Origin: Planctomycetales bacterium
Lineage (GTDB): Bacteria > Planctomycetota > Planctomycetia > Isosphaerales > Isosphaeraceae
DNA length: 64,000 bases
NCBI GenBank assembly: GCA_027449865.1
Contig: DAIDKV010000010.1
Span: forward strand, 1 to 64,000
Reading direction: 5' to 3'
In this document: piece after piece, positions 7,739 to 24,150 of the stretch
How positions within the stretch are numbered: position 1 is the stretch's first letter
Layout of the letters: every line of letters begins with the position of its first letter
Made by a program: the position numbers and the translations under genes
Notes under the pieces: generated by a model
What the model saw: the letters and a program-made list of their open reading frames with translations, nothing else
Databases searched by the model: none
Told to the model about the DNA's origin: nothing

Positions 7739-10700
7739 TCAGCGGGCGAAGGGATCCGTGGGGAAGGCGTCGTCGAGGATCAGCGTCTGGGCCTCACGCC
7801 AGGCGAGGAAGAGCGCCCAGAATTGCCAGTGATTCACACTTTCGGGAGGGCGATGCTCGAGATGGGAAAGGCCTCCGGGTTCCTGAGCGTGGAGGAAGCG
7901 ATCGGCCCGGTCGAACCACGCCCTGGCCTCATCGAGGCGGCCCTGCTGCCGCAGTGCGATGGCCAACCAGGCGGCAGCTCGGGCCCGGTTCATCTCCTCA
8001 GGCTCGCGCGCGATGACTTCACGGAAGGGCGGCTCCGCCTGATCGGGAGCCCCAGCGCGGACCAGGGCGGCACCCAGGGCAAAGAGAGCCCGGGTCCGCC
8101 GCCACGACATATCACCGGCCGCCGTCAGGTGCGCAAGTGCGCGCCGCGCGATCCGGACGCGGGTCTCCGCCTGGTCCGCCGGAATCGGCTCCAGGGCGGT
8201 GAAGTACGCCATGGCAACCTGGTATTCCTTGTCGGAACGCGAGTCCAGACTACGTAGCAACTCCTCCGAGAACTGGCGATAGCGGGCGTGGTCGCCGACA
8301 AGCACGAGCGAGAGGGCCCACTTAATCCCTCCCCAGTACTCGTGGAAGGCAGCCGGGGTCCGTATTGAGAGACGCGTCAACCAGTGGGCGGCCCGGCGGA
8401 ACTGGCCGTGAGTGGCAAGGAGGATGACAGCCCGGCCCAGAATTGTCTCATCACGCGGCGCCAGTGCGACGGCACGGGCCAGATCATCGTCGGCCTGCTC
8501 GATGAGGCCGAGATCGAGAAGGATCTCGGCCCGGGTCAGGAACTCCGACGCCCATTCGAGACCGATCCGTGCCGCGTGATCGAGGTGTTCCCGCACGAGT
8601 CGAGCCGCCTTGATTCCAAACTTCTCGCGGAATCGGAAAGCGACCTCGAGGTGGCGAGTGACCGCACGGCGGCGGGCCATCCGGATCCGGGCCGCGGGTT
8701 CTCCAGACGTTTCCGGCGGGATCGACCACATGGCCAGCGAGCGATGCATATCAAAGCAAATGGCGAATAGGCTTCGACCGTCGGGGCTGAAGCGGACCCG
8801 TGGATTGAACTCGTGGTTGCTGGAAACGAGCTGAGCCCTGCCGCGAAGCGTGAGCACTTCTTCGGCCGTCTCGGCATCCATCAGCTTGACCTGCCGGCGA
8901 GAAGCCACCGCCAGCCGCCGTCCGTCCGGACTGAATGCCAGGTCCCTGGCATCCGACGGGCCCTGCCGCGACGACACCGGGACGCGATCCGAGCCAGGGT
9001 CCCAGATCACGACCGTGCGATTCATGCCCGCCGCGGCCAGCCTCCTCGCGTCGCCGCTGAAACCCAGGGCCAGGCAACGATCGTCCGGGATCTGCCGGCG
9101 CATCTCCTCGCGACCAGTGGCGACCTCAACGACCGCCACAAACCCGACCGGCGGAGAAGCCTTCGCGTCCGTCGTCCGAGCCGTCCAGGCCCCGGCGATG
9201 GCCAGCCGCTTCCCGGTCGGGTCCAGCGCGAGGCGATCGATGGCCTCTCCTTCGGCCACTCGCCGAAGGAGGACATCGCCGGAGACGGCGTCCCAGACGA
9301 CGATTTCGGTGCGATATTCGGGCGCTCCGGACGAGGCCGCCGTGGCCGCTCGCTTCCCGTCGGCCGAGAGCGTGACGGCTTGAATCTCCAGGGTGTGGCC
9401 GCGCAGCCTTGTTGGTTTCAGGCCGTCCTCGATGTCCAGACAGACCGCCTCGCGTGGCGAGTCGGCATCGATTGTGACAAGGCGCCTGCCCTCGGCGTCG
9501 AAGGCCGCCAGCTCGGAGGGAACCCGCCAGGGAAGCGGATAGTCTCCGTATCGCTGCCGGATCCGATCGAACGATCCGACCCCATCCTGGCTGACAAACC
9601 CGTCGCGTCGGAGGCCCCGAACCTCGCGTCCCTCCCGGGCGAAAGCCATCGCCTCGAACGGAGGCTCGTGACCGTACCAGCCCCAATCGAACTCGGTTCC
9701 TCCCGTCTCCTCGTCGAAGGTGAGGTCCCAGACGCGGGCCGTCCCATCCTGCGAGCCCGTGACGAGGCGGTCGCCGTCCGGACTGAACGCCAGACTGGTC
9801 ACATTTTCGGTGTGTCCGCGGATAACCCGGATCGCCTTTCCCCGTTCGAGGTCCCACAACCGGGCGGTCCGGTCCCGGCTCGCCGAGGCCAGTTGCTGGC
9901 CATCGAAGCTGAAGGCCAGGCCCTCGACCGTGCCCTCGTGCCCGACGAGCGTCTGTCGGAGCCGGCCATCGGACAGATTCCAGACGCTGATGTAACCGGA
10001 CATCGAACCGGCCGCAAGGGTCTGAGAGTCAGGGCTGATCGCCAGGGAGATGTAATCCAACGGCTGGTCGGGCCGAATAGCCTCGGCGCCCGTGGCGGCA
10101 TCCCAGACCCGCAGATAGCAAGAGGCCGCCGCTTGTGAGATCAGGGATGTCGTCGCCAGCCATCGGCCGTCGGGGCTGAAGACAGCCTTCAGGTATCCGA
10201 ACGGCTGCGCGGGAAGGATAACCGGACGCACCCCCGTGGTGATCTCCTCGATGGCGATCGTCCGATCGTTGGTCCAGGTCGTCAACCGCCGGCCGTCGGG
10301 CGAGAAGGCCAGCGGGCCGGAATCGACACCCCTGGCGACCGCAATTGTCCGGACGAGCCGGCCCGTCGAGACCTCGTGAAGGTGGATGGTGCCGTCGTGG
10401 CTCGAAGAGGCGAGGATTCGGCTGTCCGGGCTGAAAGCGATCCGGTGAACCAGGTGTCTGTGCTCGCGCAGAGTGAACACCGCCCGGCCGGTTCCGGCAT
10501 CCCAGACAATGACCGTACCGGGCACGACCTTCTGACCCGGGCTCCCGTAGAACGGATTGCCACCGCCGGCCGTGGCGATCCACTTCCCATCGGGACTGCA
10601 GGCCACCGCATCCACCCAGCCGTCGTGGCCGTGGAGGGTGAGCAGCTCGGCATGATTCAGTTCCTTGAGGAAGTGCCACTCCCAGCCGCGGCGATTGGGT

Positions 10701-12388
10701 TCGCAACGATCGAGGATCGCCTCGGCCTCGGCGATGTTGGCACCCAGACGCTCGAGTCGGGCCCGGTCGATGTTGCTGAAATACAGACTGCGGCCGGCAC
10801 GCTCGGCGGCCTCTCGGGCGGTTTTCTCCGAATCGATCGCCTGGTCACGAGCGTGCTGGGCGGCCCTGCCAGCGTCGACGGCCACGATCCGCTGCGCATC
10901 GGCCTCGCGCCACTTCCAGGCGACCAGGCCGAAACCGATCCAGAAGACCACCAAGAGCGCCGCGATCAGCCCCGCGGGAACCGGGTTGCGCCGGCACCAC
11001 CTCAAAAACTTCTCAACCTCGCTCGCCGGTCGGGCGCGTACCGGTCGATCCTCGACGAAGAGCTTCAGGTCCTCAGCCAGCTCGGCGGCCGTCTGGTAGC
11101 GGTGGTCGGGGTCGCGGTCGATCGCCTTGTGGATGACCGTTTCGAGATCGCGAGGGACTTCGGGGTTGAGCTTCCGCAGCCGGGGGGGCTCGTCGCCCGT
11201 AATCAGGCGGACCAGACGGACTCGGTCCGTCTCTTCAAAAGCCGGGCGGAGGGCGAGAAGTTCGTAAAGGGTCAACCCCAGCGAGTAGATATCGCCGCGG
11301 GCGCCGGACTGGCCCTCGAAGGCCTCGGGCGGAATGTAACGAAGCGTCCCCACCACGTCGTGCGAGTCGGTGAGATCCTGCTGGTCCTCGATTTTCGAGA
11401 GCCCGAAATCCGTCACCCAGACTGTTCCCCGATCGTCGAGCAGAAGATTGGAAGGCTTGATGTCGCGGTGGAGAACGCCCTGCAAATGCGCGTAGGCCAG
11501 GGCCTCGGCAACCTGGACGCCAATGCGGGCGATCCCCCGCCAGTACGCCGATCGGCTCGAAGAATGCGATCCGCCTCCAGAGGATACCGGGCCCGGGCCA
11601 AGGAACGATGCCGTCGAGAACGACCGGGCCCGCTCCTCATGGTGGCCTCGGCAGTAGGTCTCCGGAGGGATTTCCGCGATGGACAGCCCGGGCTCCGTCA
11701 CGCACTCGCGTGCCTGATTCTCTAGTAACTGACCGGTCCAGAGCGAACGGGCGACCTCCGCCGCGGTGCTGCTAACCCCCTTCGATGCCTGCCGCGACGA
11801 ATATGGAACCGTCGTCTTCTCCCGACTCATGCCAGCCCTGAGCCGCCGAAGCTCGTCGAGAACCTCGTCAAGACCGCGACCAGCGATGAACTGCATCGCG
11901 TAGTACGGCGTCCCCTGGTGCTCGCCGATCCCAAAAACCGGGACGATGTTCGCGTGCGTCAGCCGGGCCGCGGCGCGGGCTTCCCGCTCGAATCGCCGGC
12001 GATGCTTGGGCACGCGGAGCAACGACATCGGCAGCAACTTCAATGCGACGTGGCGGCCCAGCGAGACCTGCTCGGCCTCGAAGACAACCCCCATCCCGCC
12101 CCGGCCGATCTCACGGAGAATTCGGAAATCGCCAATCTGATCGAACCCCAGCGACCCAGGGCGCACGGAATCCGACGCCGGCAATTCCATCTCGGGCGAG
12201 TCGGCGAGCGCGATCTTTTCGAGCATCGCCAGGGCGGGGAAAAGAGTCCGAATTTCCTCGGAGAATTCGCGATGGCGATCGATGTACTCCTGAAGAGGAG
12301 GACGCTCGCCCCGTCGATAGCGCTCGAGGAATTCCTCGGCGAGTTCAAGCACGATCGCAGATGGCGTCGCGGAATGGGACCTGGCCAT
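7739..12388 (-). CDS. Membrane Ser/Thr protein kinase with WD40 propellers and C-terminal TPR-like region
   Basis: A 1549-residue Hanks-type kinase. The kinase domain (about residues 87-445) has the glycine loop IGRGGMGVVF, the ATP lysine K117 (VALKLL), HRDIKPSN at 307-314 with catalytic D309, and DFG at 327-329. About 105 residues that are not part of the usual fold are inserted between the hinge region and helix E (roughly 178-283). A transmembrane helix follows at about 471-492. The outer part has around a dozen WD40 repeats (recurring FSPDG/LA.S.D.T..WD) and then an Ala/Arg-rich helical region like TPRs. The start at 12388 follows AGGAG; a GTG start 14 codons upstream is possible. It lies 58 bases downstream of an ECF sigma gene on the same strand, a pairing common in planctomycetes, so the two are probably co-transcribed and functionally linked. 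The ligand or substrate is unknown. Confidence 0.93.
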   Translation of the reverse strand: MARSHSATPSAIVLELAEEFLERYRRGERPPLQEYIDRHREFSEEIRTLFPALAMLEKIALADSPEMELPASDSVRPGSLGFDQIGDFRILREIGRGGMGVVFEAEQVSLGRHVALKLLPMSLLRVPKHRRRFEREARAAARLTHANIVPVFGIGEHQGTPYYAMQFIAGRGLDEVLDELRRLRAGMSREKTTVPYSSRQASKGVSSTAAEVARSLWTGQLLENQARECVTEPGLSIAEIPPETYCRGHHEERARSFSTASFLGPGPVSSGGGSHSSSRSAYWRGIARIGVQVAEALAYAHLQGVLHRDIKPSNLLLDDRGTVWVTDFGLSKIEDQQDLTDSHDVVGTLRYIPPEAFEGQSGARGDIYSLGLTLYELLALRPAFEETDRVRLVRLITGDEPPRLRKLNPEVPRDLETVIHKAIDRDPDHRYQTAAELAEDLKLFVEDRPVRARPASEVEKFLRWCRRNPVPAGLIAALLVVFWIGFGLVAWKWREADAQRIVAVDAGRAAQHARDQAIDSEKTAREAAERAGRSLYFSNIDRARLERLGANIAEAEAILDRCEPNRRGWEWHFLKELNHAELLTLHGHDGWVDAVACSPDGKWIATAGGGNPFYGSPGQKVVPGTVIVWDAGTGRAVFTLREHRHLVHRIAFSPDSRILASSSHDGTIHLHEVSTGRLVRTIAVARGVDSGPLAFSPDGRRLTTWTNDRTIAIEEITTGVRPVILPAQPFGYLKAVFSPDGRWLATTSLISQAAASCYLRVWDAATGAEAIRPDQPLDYISLAISPDSQTLAAGSMSGYISVWNLSDGRLRQTLVGHEGTVEGLAFSFDGQQLASASRDRTARLWDLERGKAIRVIRGHTENVTSLAFSPDGDRLVTGSQDGTARVWDLTFDEETGGTEFDWGWYGHEPPFEAMAFAREGREVRGLRRDGFVSQDGVGSFDRIRQRYGDYPLPWRVPSELAAFDAEGRRLVTIDADSPREAVCLDIEDGLKPTRLRGHTLEIQAVTLSADGKRAATAASSGAPEYRTEIVVWDAVSGDVLLRRVAEGEAIDRLALDPTGKRLAIAGAWTARTTDAKASPPVGFVAVVEVATGREEMRRQIPDDRCLALGFSGDARRLAAAGMNRTVVIWDPGSDRVPVSSRQGPSDARDLAFSPDGRRLAVASRRQVKLMDAETAEEVLTLRGRAQLVSSNHEFNPRVRFSPDGRSLFAICFDMHRSLAMWSIPPETSGEPAARIRMARRRAVTRHLEVAFRFREKFGIKAARLVREHLDHAARIGLEWASEFLTRAEILLDLGLIEQADDDLARAVALAPRDETILGRAVILLATHGQFRRAAHWLTRLSIRTPAAFHEYWGGIKWALSLVLVGDHARYRQFSEELLRSLDSRSDKEYQVAMAYFTALEPIPADQAETRVRIARRALAHLTAAGDMSWRRTRALFALGAALVRAGAPDQAEPPFREVIAREPEEMNRARAAAWLAIALRQQGRLDEARAWFDRADRFLHAQEPGGLSHLEHRPPESVNHWQFWALFLAWREAQTLILDDAFPTDPFAR

Positions 12389-12446
12389 CGCCGCCGCTCC
12401 TCTCCGACAGATCTTTCGAACACCCACCACGATGCCCGAGTCGGTC

Positions 12447-13091
12447 TCAGAACTCGAAACCGGGAATATTTTCGAGGATTGCCCTCAAGCGTTTCACCGC
12501 CCGGAGATATCGGCTGCCCGCTCCCGATTTGGAGATCCCCAGCACCTGGCTTATCTCGCTGAAGCTGAGCTGCTCAAAATGCTTCAGCGAGACGATCTCA
12601 CGATCGATCGGGTCCATGCTATTGAGGGCCTCCTGCACCATCAGCCGCGTCTCGGCCTTGAGCGCTGCCTGTGAAGGGGTCGACAACGAACCCAGAAGCT
12701 GGGCCGCCAGCGAGGCGGAATCCGCCAGCGGCAAGCAGCCGCGGTAGAGGGTCACCTCGCGGTCGGCATCGCGAATCTGGCAACCCAGGTGGCGGCGATG
12801 CACCTCGATCAGCTTCAAGGCGGTGAGATGCCGCATCCACAGGAACGGGGGCAACTTCGGGTCGCGAGCATAGTCCCCAAGCTTGCGCGCGATCTCCAGG
12901 TACGCTTCCTGAAGCACGTCCGAATCGTCGACCCGACCCGACAGCCGACGGCTCAGCCGCAACTCGATCATCCGCTCCAATCGCCCGCGATGTGCCGAGA
13001 AAAGACGACCGAGCGCCTCCGGATCGCCGTCAGCGGCCTGCCGGACAAGGCGCGATTCGTCCTCGGGCTTTTCCTCTTTCTCGAGATCCAT
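12447..13091 (-). CDS. ECF-type RNA polymerase sigma factor
   Basis: A 214-residue sigma-70 family protein of ECF architecture. Region 2 carries DSDVLQEAYLEIARKLGDY, and region 4 carries the helix-turn-helix FSEISQVLGISKSGAGSRYLRAVKRL near the C-terminus, with the acidic DPIDREIVSLKHFE segment before it. There is no anti-sigma gene next door; instead the kinase gene follows in the same direction after 58 bases. This matches the planctomycete pattern in which an ECF factor is controlled by a neighbouring Ser/Thr kinase rather than a classical anti-sigma factor. The start at 13091 is the first ATG in the frame, with an AGAGAG upstream. The target promoters are unknown. Confidence 0.92.
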   Translation of the reverse strand: MDLEKEEKPEDESRLVRQAADGDPEALGRLFSAHRGRLERMIELRLSRRLSGRVDDSDVLQEAYLEIARKLGDYARDPKLPPFLWMRHLTALKLIEVHRRHLGCQIRDADREVTLYRGCLPLADSASLAAQLLGSLSTPSQAALKAETRLMVQEALNSMDPIDREIVSLKHFEQLSFSEISQVLGISKSGAGSRYLRAVKRLRAILENIPGFEF

Positions 13092-15632: not shown

Positions 15633-17129
15633 GTGGAGTACGACTACGACGTGATCGTCGTGGGTAGCGGAGCCGGGGGCGCCACGTTTGCGGCCTCGTG
15701 TGCGGCCGCGGGGAAATCGGTCCTGCTCCTCGAGCGGGGCAATCCGTATCCGGCCGACCTCGCGGCTCACGACGAAAAGGCGATGCTGATCGACAAACGC
15801 CCGTACGACGATCGCGAGGTGGACGTCAACGGGCATGCCCGTCGGCTCTACATGGGTGGGATACTCGGAGGCGGCACCAGCCTTTATGGTGGCGCCTTGC
15901 TCCGTCCGAGCGAGCAGGACTTCCAGCCCGGGCGCTATTACGGCGAACGGATTCCTCGATCGATCTGGGACTGGCCGATCTCGTACCAGGAGCTCGAACC
16001 GTACTACACCGAGGCCGAGCGAATGTTTGGCGTCGCGGGCCGGAGCGACGACGACTTCGCCCCGCTGGCCCGGCCGTCGGGTGGTTTCCCCGGGGTTCCG
16101 CTTCCGCTCCATCCGCTGAACGAGCGGCTGATGGCCGCCAACCGGTCGAAGGGACTTCGGCCGTTCCAGTTGCCGCTGGCGATCGACTCGTCGCGATGCC
16201 TCCGTTGCGGCGCCTGTGCCGGGTATGTCTGCCCGACCGGAGCGCGGCAGTCGTCGGCGCAACTGGTCGAGTCGTCGATCCGGCGAGGTCAGTCCCTCCA
16301 GGTGCAAACGCATGTGGAGGTCGAGCGGCTCTTTCGCGAGCCGGGCACGGGCGCGACGATCATCTCGGTGCTCAACCGAACGACGGGGGCCCGGCAACAG
16401 TACCGGGCCCGCCGATACGCGATCGCGGCCGGTGCGCTCGGCTCGTCGCTCCTGCTGCTCCGATCGGGATTCGAACATCCGCTGATTGGCCGCAACTACA
16501 TGATGCACCTGGGCGCCATCGTCGTCGGGATCTATCCCAAGGCGACCCGGGCGGAATCGACGTTCGTCAAGCAGGTGGGCTTTCCCGACTTCTACTTCGG
16601 AACGAGGCGATTCCCACACAAGATGGGGGTGGTGCAATCGCTGGGGGTGCCGGGGCCGTTGATGGCGGCGAAGTTCTCGCCGTTTGTTCCGCCGGCGGTC
16701 CGGCAGTTCCTCCGCGAACGGGTCCTACCGCTGCTCGGCCTGATCGAGGATCTCCCCAATCCGGCGAATCGGGTGACGCTTGGTCCTGACGGCCAACCTC
16801 GGCTGCACCACCGGTACTCGCGATACGACCTGGTCCGGCGGAAGCACATGAAGCCGCAGCTCGCCCGAATTCTTCGAAGGTCGGGCGCGATGTACTTCCT
16901 CTCCTGGCGTCGACACTCGCACGACCACGTCGCGCACCAGTGTGGGACGCTCCGCTTCGGCCGCAATCCCTCGCACGCGGTTCTCGACCGCGATTGCCGG
17001 ATGTTCGCCAATCCGGATGTCTTCGTCGTTGATGGCAGTTTTCTCCCGACCTCGCTCGGGATCGGCCCCGGCCTGACGATCATCGCCAATGCCCTTCGCG
17101 TGGCGAACACGGTCGTCGGCGAGCTCTGA
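15633..17129 (+). CDS. GMC family FAD-dependent oxidoreductase with a four-cysteine motif
   Basis: A 498-residue GMC (glucose-methanol-choline) oxidoreductase. The FAD-binding G-S-G-A-G-G lies at residues 11-16 and the GMC signature GGILGGGTSLYGGALLRP near 72-90. The C-terminus has the conserved VVDGSFLPTSLGIGPGLTIIANALR block with the family's active-site neighbourhood HDHVAHQCGTLR. A cluster C189-x2-C192-x2-C195-x4-C200-P sits mid-protein. The same spacing occurs in other bacterial GMC proteins and resembles an iron-sulfur ligand set, but metal binding is not established. The start codon is GTG at 15633 after GGGAGG. No signal peptide. First gene of a five-gene run; 19 bases separate it from psd. 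The family oxidises primary or secondary alcohols; the substrate may be a lipid or sterol-like alcohol, which is inference from context. Confidence 0.9.
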   Translation: MEYDYDVIVVGSGAGGATFAASCAAAGKSVLLLERGNPYPADLAAHDEKAMLIDKRPYDDREVDVNGHARRLYMGGILGGGTSLYGGALLRPSEQDFQPGRYYGERIPRSIWDWPISYQELEPYYTEAERMFGVAGRSDDDFAPLARPSGGFPGVPLPLHPLNERLMAANRSKGLRPFQLPLAIDSSRCLRCGACAGYVCPTGARQSSAQLVESSIRRGQSLQVQTHVEVERLFREPGTGATIISVLNRTTGARQQYRARRYAIAAGALGSSLLLLRSGFEHPLIGRNYMMHLGAIVVGIYPKATRAESTFVKQVGFPDFYFGTRRFPHKMGVVQSLGVPGPLMAAKFSPFVPPAVRQFLRERVLPLLGLIEDLPNPANRVTLGPDGQPRLHHRYSRYDLVRRKHMKPQLARILRRSGAMYFLSWRRHSHDHVAHQCGTLRFGRNPSHAVLDRDCRMFANPDVFVVDGSFLPTSLGIGPGLTIIANALRVANTVVGEL

Positions 17130-17148
17130 TCCGAGGAGCCCGCCGATC

Positions 17149-18042
17149 ATGACGGTCTCTCGACGAATCCGGATTCGCCTCGAGCAGATCCGGCAGGCCC
17201 GAATCATTCACGGGGGCCTCGCCGGGCTCGTCATGGCGACGATCGCGGTCCGGCTCTCTCGACTGCCGATCCCCTCGCGGCGGGTCCGCGGCCGGCTCTT
17301 CCGCGACCAGTACGTCCGCCGATATCCGCCGGGGCTGGACGAGTCGGAATCCGAACGTCCGCTCGAGGACTACCCATCGTTCAACGCTCTCTTCACGCGA
17401 GGCGTCCGACCAGAACGCCGGCCGATCGCGGCAGGTCCGTCCGAAATCGTCAGTCCCTGCGACGGCACCGTGCAGGACGTCGGCCGGATCGAGCGCGGAA
17501 CCCTGATCACGGTCAAGGGAATCGAGTACTCGGTCGCCTCGCTGCTCGCCGATGACCCCTCGCCGTTCGAGGGCTCGCCGTTCGCCATCGTCTTTCTCTC
17601 GCCAATCGACTGCCATCGCGTCTTCAGCCCGGCGGATGGACGCTTCGAGCGAGTGGTCCACGTACCAGGCTCCCGGCTGCTCGTTCACCCGCCGTTGCAG
17701 CGCCCCGAGTATCCGGTCTACACTCTCAACGAGCGTATGATCCTTCGGCTTTCGACGGCCAATGGCCCGTGCGCCGTGGTGATGGTGGCCGGATGGGGCG
17801 TCGGGAACATCACCCTGCCCGGGGCGCCGAGGTTTCGCCCGGGATCGAAACGGGTCGAGTCGCTCACCTGGGAATCGCCTCCGACGGTCGCGCGCGGTGA
17901 CTGGCTCGCGACCTTCGAGCTGGGTTCGACGGTCGTCCTGATCGCCCCGCCAGGTCCCGATGCCGTGCCCCTGGTTCACCCCAACGAGAAGGTCCGGTAT
18001 GGAGAGTCCCTCTTCCGCCTCGCCGATTTCGACGCTCGATAA
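17149..18042 (+). CDS. psd: Phosphatidylserine decarboxylase proenzyme
   Basis: A 297-residue phosphatidylserine decarboxylase, making phosphatidylethanolamine from phosphatidylserine. The autocleavage motif L-G-S-T is at 258-261, so cleavage before S260 would give a pyruvoyl-bearing alpha chain of about 38 residues. Other conserved sites are CDGTVQ, LSPIDCHRVFSP (the usual histidine-containing loop) and the G-N-I-T segment. The N-terminus is arginine-rich with a short hydrophobic stretch, consistent with membrane attachment. The start at 17149 follows GAGGAG. Its 3' end overlaps the next gene by 44 bases, implying translational coupling. A psd inside an operon with a GMC oxidase, an FAD enzyme and an aminotransferase is unusual; a housekeeping copy is normally next to pssA. 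It may act on a modified serine lipid here. Confidence 0.93.
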   Translation: MTVSRRIRIRLEQIRQARIIHGGLAGLVMATIAVRLSRLPIPSRRVRGRLFRDQYVRRYPPGLDESESERPLEDYPSFNALFTRGVRPERRPIAAGPSEIVSPCDGTVQDVGRIERGTLITVKGIEYSVASLLADDPSPFEGSPFAIVFLSPIDCHRVFSPADGRFERVVHVPGSRLLVHPPLQRPEYPVYTLNERMILRLSTANGPCAVVMVAGWGVGNITLPGAPRFRPGSKRVESLTWESPPTVARGDWLATFELGSTVVLIAPPGPDAVPLVHPNEKVRYGESLFRLADFDAR

Positions 18043-19729
18043 CCGCCGGCTCGGTCGCCTGATGGTCGCGGGCCTGGGGCATTCCGCCGCCTCCGATTAC
18101 CTCGGGTCGGTTGACCGCGAATCGGGAACGCCAACCCTCGTCCTCTTCATCGGCGAGCGGCTGACGTCCGATCGCCGGCGCGAGCTGGACGACCTGGCCA
18201 GGACCCTCCAGGGCCAGTCGATCGACCTGATCGCGATCGTCGGCAGCTTCCGGGTCCACCTCGACGACCCAGCGGCCGAGGAGACCGAGCGATTCGCCGT
18301 CGACCTCTTCCGGAACGCCGTTCCCGGCGCCCGGGTGATCGTCTTCCGCCCCGGGCATCTGGATTCCTCGCTCAAACGCTGGGCGCCGCTCTGGCCGTTG
18401 TTCCCGAGATGGTTGACGACCTGCGTTCTGCCCGATGCCGAGCTGTTCGCCGCGATCGACTCCGAACGACGCGAAGGTGGAAACGAAAACCCCCAGCCAG
18501 GCCCCGGGCGAACACCCGGCCGGGATGGCCGGGCCTTTACCCTCCTCGGTGCGAACACTGCCTGGCGCGAGGCGCTCCGCCGGCATCAAGATCGATCCCG
18601 GTCCAGTGCCGTCCTCGAAATGACCGCCCGCGTCCTCTCGTGGATCCTGGTCGGCCAGATCATCGGGATCGCGATCACCGCGATGGCGAGGTTCCGCCCT
18701 GCCCTCCGAGCCCTCCACGTGACGACCCTTCGCCCTCGATCGTTCCGCGAGCTGATCGCGCTCTGCCACGCGAGGAACATCGACCGCGTTCGGGTGGTCG
18801 GCTACAACAACGGCGTCCACCACTTCGGCCATCGCTATCCCGGCAAGACGATCGTCTCCACCGTTCGATGCGGCCGGACCCTCCGCGACGGCCGGGGCTA
18901 CCTTCGCGCTGACTCCGGCGCCACGATTCGCGCGGCCATCTCCCGCCTGGCCGAGACCAATGAAGAATTGTTCGTCGTTCCGAATTACTCGTACGTCTCG
19001 CTCGGCACCGCGTTCTTCGTTCCGATCCACGGATCGGCCGTCGATTACGCGACGGTCGCCGACACGATCACCCGCGTCGTCCTCTACGACCCCGACCGCG
19101 ACCGCATCCTCTCGGCCGATCGCGACGACCCCGTCTTCGCCGAGAACCTCTACAACCTGAAGAGCCGCGCGGTGGTTCTCCGGCTGGAGCTTCGAACCCG
19201 CCCACGCTCGGCCTATTACGTCCGGCGCGAGACGGTGACCGACGCGACCGCCGAACAACTCCTCGACGCCCTGAGCGACCGGAACGCCGCGAACGTCGAG
19301 ATCCGCCAGGCCAACGCCGCAAGCCGGACGGTCACGATCTCCCGCTACTCGACCGGCAACGACTCGGCATCCGGCCCCGCGATGGAGCTTCCGCGCGACG
19401 CCCTCGGCCGGCTCTGGGATATTCTGGAAGAAAACCCAATCACGTCGTTTTTGATGCACGCGACGGCCCGGCACGTCGCCTGGCACACCGAGATCTTCTT
19501 CAACGCTGAAGAGTTCAAAACATTCTGGCGAACGCATGCCGACGTCCCGCTCCGGAAGATCCAGCTCCGCTACATCCGCCGCGACGGGATGCCGCACTCG
19601 CCGTTTCGAGACGAGGACCGCGTCTCGGCCGACCTTTTCCTCTTCCGTCCCGACAAACCGCGATTTGACGCCTACACCGCCGCCGTGCTCCCCAACGTCC
19701 GATACAACCCCGGCAAGCACAGCAACTAG
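17999..19729 (+). CDS. FAD-binding (PCMH-type) oxidoreductase, aldonolactone-oxidase-like
   Basis: A 576-residue protein. The middle (about residues 250-400) reads as a PCMH-type FAD-binding domain: VRVVGYNNGVHHFG, LRADSGATIRAAISRLAE, VVPNYSYVSLGTAFF, PIHGSAVDYATVADTI and VVLYDPDRDRIL follow the block order of D-arabinono-lactone oxidase-like enzymes. The first ~180 residues look like a nucleotide-binding, epimerase-like region (LGRLMVAGLGHSAASDYLG, PTLVLFIGERL), and a single hydrophobic segment lies near residue 215. No histidyl-FAD attachment site can be assigned with confidence. The start at 17999 is inside psd (44-base overlap), preceded by GAGAAGG. The aminotransferase starts 12 bases after its stop. 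It probably oxidises an alcohol or lactone made in the same pathway; the substrate is unknown. Confidence 0.75.
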   Translation: MESPSSASPISTLDNRRLGRLMVAGLGHSAASDYLGSVDRESGTPTLVLFIGERLTSDRRRELDDLARTLQGQSIDLIAIVGSFRVHLDDPAAEETERFAVDLFRNAVPGARVIVFRPGHLDSSLKRWAPLWPLFPRWLTTCVLPDAELFAAIDSERREGGNENPQPGPGRTPGRDGRAFTLLGANTAWREALRRHQDRSRSSAVLEMTARVLSWILVGQIIGIAITAMARFRPALRALHVTTLRPRSFRELIALCHARNIDRVRVVGYNNGVHHFGHRYPGKTIVSTVRCGRTLRDGRGYLRADSGATIRAAISRLAETNEELFVVPNYSYVSLGTAFFVPIHGSAVDYATVADTITRVVLYDPDRDRILSADRDDPVFAENLYNLKSRAVVLRLELRTRPRSAYYVRRETVTDATAEQLLDALSDRNAANVEIRQANAASRTVTISRYSTGNDSASGPAMELPRDALGRLWDILEENPITSFLMHATARHVAWHTEIFFNAEEFKTFWRTHADVPLRKIQLRYIRRDGMPHSPFRDEDRVSADLFLFRPDKPRFDAYTAAVLPNVRYNPGKHSN

Positions 19730-19741
19730 CGAAGGTCCCGC

Positions 19742-21895
19742 ATGATCCCCCTCCCGACCATCGCCGAGACCATCGACGAAATCGTGCGCGAGCAGGAGCC
19801 GAACTTCCTCCGGCTCTACCTCAACCCGCACACAGCCTGCACCTGCCTGGCCCTCGACCGGTACGCAAGGACCACCTGGCCCATCAGCCGGGACGAGGAC
19901 TTTCAGTCGTTCCTCGCCAACAGCATCGAGGAAGCCATCAGCGGAGCCCTGAAGCTCCTCCGATGCCACCGCCTCCCAACCGACCCCGACGCAACCGGCC
20001 TGATCCTCGACCCGGCCGACCGACTGAAGGGATTCGCCTCGGCCGATCTAACCAGCGGCGATCGCGTCGCGTTCCTCCCCGCCCTGACCACGCTCTCAGG
20101 TCCGCTCGACGGCCTGAGCGAGGCGGCCGAGGGGCCGCGGATCAACCCACTCGTCCTGGTCCTCTCGGGAGACCATCTCCTCGACGATCAGGAGGCGGCC
20201 CTTCGTCGCCTCATCCAGCGCCACGCGCCCCGGATCATCACCTGTGTCGACCGCGAGGCCCTCGCCACGATCCGATCGGGCCCCGACCGCCTCGTCCGCC
20301 GGCTGATCCCCGACGTGATCGTCTTCGAAGAGTCGTTCACCGATCACGCCGTTCCCTTCGCCGCCTTCACGGCCCGACGCTCGATCTTCGCCCCGTGGAA
20401 CCGCCCCGGAAAGGGAACCTTCCACTCAACCACCTTCCAGCCGAACACGATCTCCGCCCGCCATTTCCTGGAAGTCCTGGCGCATACCGATCCGAGGTTC
20501 CACGGCTCTCTAACCGTCGAAATGAGACGCCTTCACGACGATCTCTCGGCGCGTGGAGAGGCGTACCGTCGACACTACAATCCCGGTCTCTTCCGCCTGA
20601 TCCGGGCCGCCGGATTCGAGACGAGGGATGTTCGAACATCGGGTGCCTTTATCGTCGTGAACGGCCAGCCGATCTACGACGTCGTGGGAGGCGTCGCGTG
20701 CAGTATCCGCGGTCACAACCCGACCACTTACGTGGAAGAAACCACCGCGCCCGAGTTGCCGGCCGGACCGGCCCTCGAAGCGGAGTTGCACGATCGATTA
20801 CAGACGCTCACGGGCCTCGAATGTGTCCTCCCGGCGGTCAGCGGGGCGGGTGCCGTTGAGAACGCACTGAAACTGGCGCTCGTGGCTCAGTTTCCGAGGC
20901 GGCACGTTCTGATCCTGAAATCAGGCTTCGGCGGCAAGACTCTCCTCGCACTCACGGCGACCGAGAAGCCCTCGTACCGAAAATCCGTCGGCCCGCTCTA
21001 TCCCGACGTCCATTACCTCGACCCCTTCGCACCCGACGCGATTCAGCAGATCGAGGCACTTCTGGAGCGCCACGACTTCGCCGTCGTGCAGGTCGAACTG
21101 GTGCAATCGGTCGGCGGCGTCCGGCCGATCCCCGAAGCCTTGCTCCGCCACCTCGACGAGGGACGCGCCCGACGCGGTTACCTCCTCCTGGTGGACGAGG
21201 TTCAAACGGGGATGTACCGCACGGGCCCATTCGTACGCTCGCGGGCACTTGGCCTCACGCCGGATTTGCTTTTGCTCGGAAAGGGGACGTCGGACATGGT
21301 CTTCCCCTTCGCGCTGACGCTCTACTCCAAGGCGGCCGCCGATCGAGTCGAGGCAAGGTCTCCTGGCCTGGTTGATGCGATCCACCGTCGATTTGCGTTC
21401 GAACAGGGATACCGGACGGTCGTCAACCTGCTCCGCCTCGCCGAGCGGATCGACCTGCAAGCCCAGGTCGAGGAGGCGTCCCGGACGTTCGTCGGCGCTC
21501 TGGAATCGGAGCTGGCCGATCATCCGAACCTTCTGGAAATCCGCGCGTTTGGCCTGCTGATTGGAATCGAACTCGACGCAACGCGCGGGCCCCGAAAATG
21601 GCTGGGGAAGCGACTGGCGCCGATGGCCCTCCTGAAGATGCTACGACACCCCAGGTTCCCGCTGCTGGCCGGACTCTGCCAGTACGAACCGAACGTTTTG
21701 AAGGTCACCCCGCCGCTCGACGCCGCTCCAGACGACCTTCGCGCGGCCGCCCGGACGATCGCCGAGGTGATCGATGCACCGTTCTCACGCGTCCTTGCCG
21801 CCGGGCTCGGCGGACTCTTGCAGCCTTCACCGATCCAGAGGAAAGAAAGCGATGAGCACACAGGCCGCCCAGCCGCTGAGCTTGCGGCACGTTGA
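19742..21895 (+). CDS. Class III aminotransferase with an N-terminal degenerate aminotransferase domain
   Basis: A 717-residue PLP enzyme. The C-terminal part (about 310-690) is a class III aminotransferase: VSGAGAVENALKLA, D485 in LLLVDEVQTG binding the pyridine nitrogen, and the Schiff-base lysine K514 in LLLGKGTSDM. The N-terminal ~280 residues also look like part of the same fold: PDVIVFEESFTDHAVPFAAF followed by GTFHSTTFQPN mirrors the family pattern of (P)D-x-x-x-L-G-K-S-x-x-x-G-x-P-x-G-A and G-T-F-x-G-N-P. In this copy the lysine position is E197, so it should not bind PLP covalently. The protein would then be an active domain fused to a dead one, perhaps replacing a homodimer. It overlaps the next gene by 44 bases. 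Amino acceptor unknown; an aldehyde or ketone produced by the upstream oxidases is plausible. Confidence 0.82.
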   Translation: MIPLPTIAETIDEIVREQEPNFLRLYLNPHTACTCLALDRYARTTWPISRDEDFQSFLANSIEEAISGALKLLRCHRLPTDPDATGLILDPADRLKGFASADLTSGDRVAFLPALTTLSGPLDGLSEAAEGPRINPLVLVLSGDHLLDDQEAALRRLIQRHAPRIITCVDREALATIRSGPDRLVRRLIPDVIVFEESFTDHAVPFAAFTARRSIFAPWNRPGKGTFHSTTFQPNTISARHFLEVLAHTDPRFHGSLTVEMRRLHDDLSARGEAYRRHYNPGLFRLIRAAGFETRDVRTSGAFIVVNGQPIYDVVGGVACSIRGHNPTTYVEETTAPELPAGPALEAELHDRLQTLTGLECVLPAVSGAGAVENALKLALVAQFPRRHVLILKSGFGGKTLLALTATEKPSYRKSVGPLYPDVHYLDPFAPDAIQQIEALLERHDFAVVQVELVQSVGGVRPIPEALLRHLDEGRARRGYLLLVDEVQTGMYRTGPFVRSRALGLTPDLLLLGKGTSDMVFPFALTLYSKAAADRVEARSPGLVDAIHRRFAFEQGYRTVVNLLRLAERIDLQAQVEEASRTFVGALESELADHPNLLEIRAFGLLIGIELDATRGPRKWLGKRLAPMALLKMLRHPRFPLLAGLCQYEPNVLKVTPPLDAAPDDLRAAARTIAEVIDAPFSRVLAAGLGGLLQPSPIQRKESDEHTGRPAAELAAR

Positions 21896-22385
21896 CTTCG
21901 ACGACCTTTATGCCCGCCACCTCGGCCGACACTCGCAGTTCGGGATCAACGTCGCGCACGTTGTGGCGCTCTACGGTCTCTGGTACGGGGTTTATGCCGC
22001 GATCGACCAGGCCGCGCGACACCTCGGCGCCCCGATGACCTGGCCGATCCTCGCCACGATGGCCATCGCGTATCTCGCCGTCGTCTCGATCAACGCCCCG
22101 GCGCGGAACGTCGTTGTGACGGCCATCTTCATGGCCATCTTCGTGGCGAGCGTGCTGGTTTTGCCGACCCTCCCAATCTGGTCGATCCCGCTCTTCCTCG
22201 CGATGTCACCAGCTTTCTACAAGTTCCAGGCCTGGAATCACAAGATCTGGACCCGCGCCGCGGACATGAGCGAGTTCAACAAGCGATTCCCACCCGGCAA
22301 GGATCTGAATATGATCCTGTTGATGTACGAGATCCCGATCTGCCTGAACTACCTGATCTTCCACCGCGAGGACTGGCGGTCCTGA
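21852..22385 (+). CDS. Small multi-pass membrane protein, Mpo1/DUF962-like
   Basis: A 177-residue protein with about four hydrophobic segments (near residues 28-48, 57-77, 82-105 and 107-125). An N-terminal H-x-x-x-F-G-I-N-x-x-H-V pattern and a later W-N-H motif resemble the histidine pairs of the Mpo1/DUF962 family, in which Mpo1 is an iron-dependent 2-hydroxy fatty acid dioxygenase. The match is loose, so the family call is tentative; a generic sterol-desaturase-like or unknown membrane protein is the alternative. It begins inside the aminotransferase gene (44-base overlap, GAGGAAAG upstream) and is the last gene of the operon, closed by a strong hairpin. Its location argues for a lipid-linked substrate for the whole operon. 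Confidence 0.6.
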   Translation: MSTQAAQPLSLRHVDFDDLYARHLGRHSQFGINVAHVVALYGLWYGVYAAIDQAARHLGAPMTWPILATMAIAYLAVVSINAPARNVVVTAIFMAIFVASVLVLPTLPIWSIPLFLAMSPAFYKFQAWNHKIWTRAADMSEFNKRFPPGKDLNMILLMYEIPICLNYLIFHREDWRS

Positions 22386-22422
22386 TCATCGGCGAATTCC
22401 GAGGCCGCGCGAACGCGAAAGT

Positions 22423-22474
22423 ACCAAAGCACGAAACCGCGAAAGGATATCTTTTCGCGGTTTCGTGCTTTGGT
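22423..22474 (+). terminator. Strong 22-bp intrinsic terminator ending the five-gene operon
   Basis: Perfect 22-bp inverted repeat (22423-22444 and 22453-22474) with an 8-base loop, followed on the plus strand by a T-rich tail (22476-22481). It lies between convergent genes ending at 22385 and 22491, so it may also stop minus-strand transcripts, though the T tract is only on the plus side. Confidence 0.8.
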
Positions 22475-22490
22475 GTTTTTTGGTCAGGGT

Positions 22491-23366
22491 CTACCGCTTG
22501 CGGCCAACGGCCACGACGATGTTGTGTTTGTCCTGGAGCGGGAAGGCGAGGCGGTTGAGGAACCACTTCTTGATCGGCCCGGCCTTTTGCAGGCCCATCG
22601 ATTCGAGGAGCGGTGTGAGCCAGCCGCCTCGATAGCCGAATTCCATGAACTCGTCAAAATTTCGGAACTGAAGGACCGGCTCGAACGTCTCGCCCTGGCA
22701 GAGTTCGAAGCCGTGCGCTTCCATCGTTCGTGCGACTTCTTCAAGATGGGCCGGGTTCAAAACGGTCTCGTCCATCGACCGATCTCCCGCGCCGGCGAGG
22801 CGGCGGAGGAGCCTGGAGTTGCCCAGGGACTGGAGGCCCGGATAGGCGGCCTTTGTCCCGCCGATCAGCGACCAGTAGCCGCCGGATTCGAGTCGTCGGG
22901 CGATCTGGGGCGCCAGCCTGGTCATGGGCACGAAGCCGGTGACGAAGTGGGTGCAGACGCAGTCGAACATCTTGCCCGGGAAGTACGAATCGAGCTCGCC
23001 GGCATCGCCGACGACCGCGTCGAGGTCAGGAAGGCGGCGTCGGGCGACCTGGAGCATGTTCTCGGCGAGGTCGATCCCGAAGGGCTCGATCCGATCGCCG
23101 GCGTGGTTGCGGAGCTTGCCGAGGAACAGGCCGGTCCCCATCCCGAGGTCCAGCACCCGCCATCGGCGGTTCGGATCGCTCAGGCCCTCGGCCTCGAGCT
23201 GGCGGATGCCTCGATCGAGCGCCTGGCCGATGATGCCCTGAGGGTCGAGATCGTAATGATCGGCGACGACTTCGTTGTACGCGTGGTGAACCGTGGAAAC
23301 GCTCATGTCAAAAGGACTCGGCTCGGTGCTGGGAGAAGGATCAGGCGTGGCTGGGGTCGAGTTCAT
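22491..23366 (-). CDS. SAM-dependent class I methyltransferase
   Basis: A 291-residue methyltransferase. The SAM-binding motif I is VLDLGMGTGLFLGKL, followed by the acidic residue of motif II in FGIDLAENML, then VVGDAGELDS and CVCTHFVTGFV. An insertion near SMDETVLNPAHLEEVA and FELCQGETFEPV is typical of lipid or small-molecule methyltransferases, but the substrate is not recognisable. Two starts are possible. 23366 gives the longer form, has GCAGG upstream and overlaps the phosphoesterase stop by 26 bases. 23306 (MSVSTVH) drops a Pro/Ser-rich leader but has no good ribosome site. The overlap and shared direction indicate co-transcription with the phosphoesterase. Confidence 0.85.
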   Translation of the reverse strand: MNSTPATPDPSPSTEPSPFDMSVSTVHHAYNEVVADHYDLDPQGIIGQALDRGIRQLEAEGLSDPNRRWRVLDLGMGTGLFLGKLRNHAGDRIEPFGIDLAENMLQVARRRLPDLDAVVGDAGELDSYFPGKMFDCVCTHFVTGFVPMTRLAPQIARRLESGGYWSLIGGTKAAYPGLQSLGNSRLLRRLAGAGDRSMDETVLNPAHLEEVARTMEAHGFELCQGETFEPVLQFRNFDEFMEFGYRGGWLTPLLESMGLQKAGPIKKWFLNRLAFPLQDKHNIVVAVGRKR

Positions 23367-24150
23367 GAACCTGCTGCCGGCCGGCGCCGGCGCGAGCGAG
23401 AGCCCCCTCATGGGGATCGTCCGGCGGCCAGTATTCCAGGCAAATTTCCCGGCCGCGGACCGAGACGAACGGACAGGGGGGATGTTCGGTCCAGGTTCCG
23501 CTATTCACGTAGAGGATGCCCTGGCTGGTTTCCAGCCCGGGGAGGTGGGTGTGCCCGCAGGTCACGGCCTCGCAACCGCGGGTCCGCGCCAGGCGGATCG
23601 CTCCGTCACGGATCGTCGGCCCGTTCCGCTGCCAACGCTTCGAGGCCCGCCGGATATACCGAGAGGCTCGATGCGGGGCCCACTTCTGGATGTAGTAAAA
23701 CACACCGCAGGCCAGTTCGGTCAGCAGTCCGTAGTTATTCACGAACCGATCGAACTGGTCGCCGTGAAGGATTAGCAGCCGGGTCGTACCATTACAGTAC
23801 TCGTACTCGTCGAGAACTTCCACCCCGACGATGTGCGCAACCACCTCGGCCGGGCCGTCGTGATTCCCCCGTATCCAGATCAGGCGGAGGTCCTCTCGAT
23901 CCGAGTGGCGCCGGATGATCTTCAGGCAGGCGAAGTGCCGCTTCGAAAGCCGACGGAAGTTCAGGTCATCAAAAATATCGCCGTTGATAACCAGCTCGCG
24001 GGTATTCTTGACGGCCCATTCCAGGAACCCCTCCAGCAGCTTCGCCTGGCAGACCTCGCTGCCCAGGTGAAGATCGCTGATGATCAGGCAGTCGTACGGC
24101 CGAGACCCGGTCTCGGCCCCCGGCTCCGGTCCGGCCCGGTGGTCGGACAT
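23341..24150 (-). CDS. Calcineurin-like phosphoesterase, UDP-2,3-diacylglucosamine hydrolase (LpxH)-like
   Basis: A 269-residue metallophosphoesterase with all five family blocks: DLHLGS, NGDIFDD, GNHDG, LHGDQFDRF and CGHTHLP. The GDQFD block and the following long helical insert (YYIQKWAPHRASRYIRRASKRW) are characteristic of the LpxH/YbbF-like branch, in which the insert forms a cap over an acylated sugar nucleotide. A role in lipid A-type or related envelope lipid processing is therefore likely, though broader phosphoesterases share the pattern. No signal peptide. It is followed by the methyltransferase gene with overlap. Confidence 0.85.
   Translation of the reverse strand: MSDHRAGPEPGAETGSRPYDCLIISDLHLGSEVCQAKLLEGFLEWAVKNTRELVINGDIFDDLNFRRLSKRHFACLKIIRRHSDREDLRLIWIRGNHDGPAEVVAHIVGVEVLDEYEYCNGTTRLLILHGDQFDRFVNNYGLLTELACGVFYYIQKWAPHRASRYIRRASKRWQRNGPTIRDGAIRLARTRGCEAVTCGHTHLPGLETSQGILYVNSGTWTEHPPCPFVSVRGREICLEYWPPDDPHEGALARAGAGRQQVHELDPSHA

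Follow-up and report, generated by a model that had tools for sequence, protein, structure and literature searches.

Most fold type I PLP enzymes contain two equal active sites, each built from both subunits. The glycine decarboxylase P-protein combines one active and one degenerate fold type I half in a single chain; it is a decarboxylase and belongs to a fold type I family other than the one discussed here. In eukaryotic serine palmitoyltransferase, SPT1 (LCB1), which has no lysine, pairs with SPT2 (LCB2), and the account in PMC6148460 points to what is presumably a single site at the interface of this fold type I pair. Among class III enzymes, the E. coli putrescine aminotransferase YgjG is described as a single-domain dimer of like subunits, in which PLP is joined to Lys300 as a Schiff base, Asp271 binds its pyridine nitrogen, and Gly150 and Thr151, together with Thr332 from the partner subunit, bind its phosphate (PMC4244111). 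A threonine from the other subunit is also described for an omega-transaminase of Thermomicrobium (PMC6502798) and for class III enzymes generally (PMC9309667). Serratia PigE, another class III enzyme, is described as also reducing a thioester (PMC8341465). Searching open-licence papers, a weak basis for claiming absence, we found no report of a class III enzyme that is fused or that forms an active/dead pair.

Here we analyze a bi-domain aminotransferase gene encoded in a 64,000-nucleotide stretch of a Planctomycetales genome (contig DAIDKV010000010.1; hereafter, the window). We consider it probable that the protein belongs to the class III PLP enzymes and brings its own dead partner, with one active site per chain.

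Results

The aminotransferase open reading frame begins 12 bases past the stop codon of the upstream gene, and its 3' end is overlapped by the next gene (Table 1). Aminotran_3 was the sole Pfam family found in the chain, a second, sub-threshold match being taken as noise.

Table 1. Positions of the aminotransferase gene, its domains and key residues, and the neighboring genes in the window
Feature	Position	Strand	Basis
GMC-type FAD oxidoreductase	15633..17129	+	Pfam; 11/14 loci
Phosphatidylserine decarboxylase homologue, LGST motif	17089..18042	+	Pfam 1.1e-48; 11/14 loci
FAD_binding_4-like protein	17960..19729	+	Weak match below Pfam cut-off; 12/14 loci
Bi-domain class III aminotransferase gene	19742..21895	+	ORF, 717 aa; Pfam Aminotran_3 at residues 298-615
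N-terminal lysine-less class III large domain, residues 1 to ~257	19742..20512	+	Profile, pairwise and fold matches
E197, catalytic-lysine position of the dead domain	20330..20332	+	E in 21/23 rows; opposite Lys in alignments
H228-N235 (HSTTFQPN), HxxT motif	20423..20446	+	H228, S229, T231, N235 in 23/23 rows
C-terminal complete class III aminotransferase domain, residues ~258-684	20513..21793	+	VIA Z 40.8; profile E 1.4e-56 to PigE
D485, pyridine-nitrogen aspartate	21194..21196	+	23/23 rows
K514, PLP Schiff-base lysine	21281..21283	+	23/23 rows
Degenerate HxxT place in C-domain, residues 548-556	21383..21409	+	Thr in 0/23 rows at residue 551
178-aa protein, no Pfam match, overlaps aminotransferase end	21849..22385	+	11/14 loci
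SAM methyltransferase	22491..23411	-	Pfam; 11/14 loci

Searched singly, residues 1-300 of the window's own protein gave no Pfam match and no convincing match among PDB sequences. We collected relatives from a species-genome collection (76 loci) and from genomes near the window, and built a profile from an alignment of 15 N-terminal domains. Against PDB sequences, this profile retrieved a class III enzyme as its best match (E 1.4e-7), and class III PLP enzymes occupied ranks 1-19 and made up 37 of the 42 matches in total. When the 15 domains were scanned singly against Aminotran_3, 9 of them matched at E values up to 1 (best 3e-8), with the window's own domain giving no match. Profile-profile comparison with 16 single-domain relatives gave E 1.1e-7 over profile columns 4-247, which is nearly the whole domain, and the N-terminal domain of the Rhodopirellula sallentina protein (locus L026) aligned over 245 aa with a single-domain relative in BLASTP (26 per cent, E 1.4e-10).

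The fold search of the whole chain covered residues 257-684 only, and the N-terminal domain was therefore folded and searched separately. The model of the lone domain (pLDDT 76.5, pTM 0.77) matched class III structures in Foldseek, with a best E value of 3.0e-8, and in VIA its residues 19-252 were superimposed on residues 77-344 of a class III chain (Z 14.4, rmsd 4.2, 217 aligned). YgjG is one of the top structural matches to the C-terminal domain and matches the N-terminal domain as well. By its profile matches and predicted fold, the N-terminal domain is thus a class III aminotransferase large domain.

A reading made earlier from the sequence alone (the sequence-only reading) had placed a second aminotransferase domain at the N-terminus and had named an unrelated N-terminal fold as the result that would speak against it. 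Structure prediction returned a class III fold instead, and the matches to class III enzymes by profile, in pairwise alignment and by fold bear out the second domain. The boundary lies near residue 255 rather than 300, and the copy is a large domain only, the match spanning residues ~20-254 and leaving out the small-domain parts. Compared with the C-domain profile of the same proteins, the N-domain profile gave a weak match (P 0.066), and the domain resembles single-domain class III enzymes more than it resembles its own C-terminal neighbor. Given the weak match between the two halves, the domain may or may not have arisen by internal duplication.

To describe conservation we used 23 aligned rows, 22 of them distinct. 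E197, which lies in the context PDVIVFEESF, stands opposite the catalytic lysine both in the profile-profile alignment with the single-domain relatives and in the alignments of the profile with PDB sequences. Across the rows residue 197 is E in 21, D in one and A in one, with lysine in none; the loss of the lysine is therefore old, and a sequencing error is excluded. The column of the phosphate-binding glycine (residue 62) retains Gly in a single row of 23, and D170, near the position of the aspartate, is D in 18/23. The HxxT motif is kept throughout, and the two most divergent members of the family (L026 and L027) still read HSNTWGGN there. Four of the 17 invariant columns of the N-terminal domain fall within this 8-residue motif (hypergeometric P = 7e-4, for a stretch that was picked post hoc, albeit one that is a known class III motif).

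The C-terminal domain passed the Aminotran_3 cut-off by a wide margin (130.1 bits against 30.5), and residues 268-680 of its model superimposed on ordinary class III chains. PigE was its best profile match; the cut-off of the PigE equivalog NF053554 was not reached (133.5 bits against 850). PigE also carries an extra N-terminal part, but that part differs from the one described here, which aligns to the aminotransferase part of PigE (chain 452-697). S367, G368, E452, Q455, D485, V487 and K514 are present in 23/23 rows, with D485 in the context DEVQTG and K514 in LGKG. E197, D485 and K514 are as the sequence-only reading stated them.

Several other C-domain positions depart from the class III pattern. 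G397 replaces the usual His, the Glu of the GEGG segment is V457 in 21/23 rows, and K654 stands in for the Arg in the RxxPPL segment, again in 21/23; in both cases the exceptions, with Glu and Arg, are L026 and L027. The V457 and K654 departures are visible against PigE and the acetylornithine aminotransferase of Thermus. A lysine also occupies the Arg place in the consensus of the 16 single-domain relatives, so that K654 does not set the fused family apart. We take the two positions to be the Glu/Arg switch that serves the two half-reactions, and given V457 and K654 the amino donor and acceptor may be unusual. Because of the departures at G397, V457 and K654, activity of the C-terminal domain is not certain.

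In class III enzymes, one subunit contributes the Lys, the Asp and a phosphate-binding Gly to an active site, and its partner contributes the Thr of an HxxT motif. If the two domains pair around one working site, each half is expected to have lost what the other kept. In our alignment T231 is the equivalent of Thr332 of YgjG, the threonine contributed by the other subunit. At the corresponding column of the C-terminal domain, placed at residue 551 by a joint MAFFT alignment that leaves the exact column uncertain, no row carries the threonine that is present in 16/16 single-domain relatives; hhalign puts a gap at this place, and the motif is missing under either alignment. As aligned, the loss is reciprocal: the C-terminal domain keeps the Lys, the Asp and the Gly without the HxxT threonine, and the N-terminal domain keeps the HxxT motif without the Lys and, in all but one row, without the Gly.

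The PLP-free model of the full chain reached pTM 0.90 and mean pLDDT 86.2, as compared to the poorer values of the lone N-terminal domain, and suggests that the two domains are arranged in a definite way. The loop that carries T231 was predicted at pLDDT below 50, at residues 226-228 and 230-232 in the full chain and at residues 229-231 in the lone domain.

Of the 45 genomes in the window's family, 11 encode the fused protein, one of these as two pieces at contig ends. Across 392 sampled genomes of the phylum, the N-domain profile retrieved it in three, including the window's own, all in long open frames, and a single-sequence search of 392 genomes of the phylum gave 5 matches, two of them weak. 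Outside the phylum, it was found in the cyanobacterium Hyella patelloides, the single carrier among 292 genomes of its phylum, an occurrence that suggests horizontal transfer. We looked for a stand-alone gene for the N-terminal domain by scoring the best 6 to 8 candidates of each genome against the N-domain profile, in the 392 genomes of the window's phylum and the 292 of the Hyella phylum, and found none.

We examined the neighboring genes at the loci of 14 full-length relatives, where some misses fall near contig ends. The cluster at 15633-23411 recurs in most of the Planctomycetota relatives and in part in Hyella. Its decarboxylase homologue, whose true start is probably downstream of 17089, has no second PF02666 match beside it in the window's genome, and the FAD_binding_4-like neighbor gave no match in a search of PDB sequences. 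Among the open-licence papers listed for an Isosphaeraceae cluster, none was relevant. That the product of the cluster is a modified lipid is a guess.

At the Hyella patelloides locus (L020:1-6567), the small protein, the methyltransferase, an MFS protein and a fatty acid desaturase are encoded along with the fused enzyme. At the loci of the most divergent fused enzymes (L026:465-10085 and L027:548-9947) none of the usual cluster neighbors was seen; the genes around them code for GH3-family, MMPL-type and ketopantoate reductase-like proteins (Pfam on L026 only). Elsewhere in the window, the minus strand encodes a 1563-aa protein kinase with WD40 repeats (7739-12430), which adjoins an ECF sigma factor (12447-13091).

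Discussion

In the arrangement that we favor, with the dead partner built into the chain, PLP would be bound in the C-terminal domain through K514 and D485, and the chemistry would be done there. The large domain of the dead N-terminal half probably packs on the C-terminal domain as the second subunit of an ordinary dimer does, and would give T231 of its HSTTF segment to the PLP phosphate, the outcome being a single active site per chain. We infer that the domains pack like a dimer, that T231 touches PLP, that the pairing takes place within one chain rather than by domain swapping, and that the enzyme is a transaminase. An active/dead pair in one chain had been proposed by the sequence-only reading, and homology, fold prediction and conservation in the 23 rows all back it. 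That reading had further suggested that the pair could replace the usual homodimer; this is favored by the complementary loss of motifs and by the pTM 0.90 model, with the oligomeric state being a prediction. Its other suggestion, a docking surface for partner enzymes, is speculative.

The same pattern of motifs would be expected if two chains formed a domain-swapped homodimer, in which the N-terminal domain of one chain completes the C-terminal site of the other to give two sites per dimer. Such a dimer fits the sequences equally well, and dimers are described for YgjG as well as for other members of class III (PMC4244111). Against this, the pTM 0.90 obtained for a lone chain suggests, without showing, that the pairing is possible within one chain, and we regard the swap as unlikely. 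We find it harder still to believe that the C-terminal domains form the usual homodimer, with the N-terminal domain appended as a scaffold or docking module. The full length of the C-terminal domain and its match to ordinary class III chains (Z 40.8) speak for this, but the threonine expected from the other subunit would then be absent from both sites (0/23 rows), and yet the N-terminal domain keeps its own threonine in 23/23.

A separate question is whether the chain is a working transaminase at all. The C-terminal domain could catalyze another PLP reaction or be inactive, either of which would be compatible with a built-in partner, and the replacement of the GEGG Glu and of the Arg before PPL, each in 21/23 rows, points in this direction. 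On the other hand, the invariant K514 and D485 argue for some PLP chemistry, and the two most divergent members retain both the Glu and the Arg. We view the absence of transaminase activity as rather unlikely.

With the built-in partner as the preferred explanation, serine palmitoyltransferase is the nearest working analogue. The lysine loss is seen here as it is there, and a shared interface site would be the second common trait. The two differ in that serine palmitoyltransferase belongs to the alpha-oxoamine synthase family and consists of two polypeptides, whereas the present enzyme is of class III, is made as one polypeptide, and has a dead half reduced to the large domain. As a tentative suggestion, the fused proteins may form a single-chain, single-site class III family whose halves share out the ancestral residues between them, and in which the freed dead half and the V457 and K654 changes suit the enzyme to a substrate that the cluster makes and that is unusual and possibly linked to lipid.

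The dead half is missed by standard annotation, as Pfam gives no match to the N-terminal domain of the window's protein. The fused enzyme marks an uncharacterized conserved gene cluster in Planctomycetota. In T231, E197 and K514 it offers simple mutants with which to probe the role of the second site in an ordinary dimer, and the opposite losses in its two halves would represent a route from an obligate homodimer to an asymmetric enzyme with one site.
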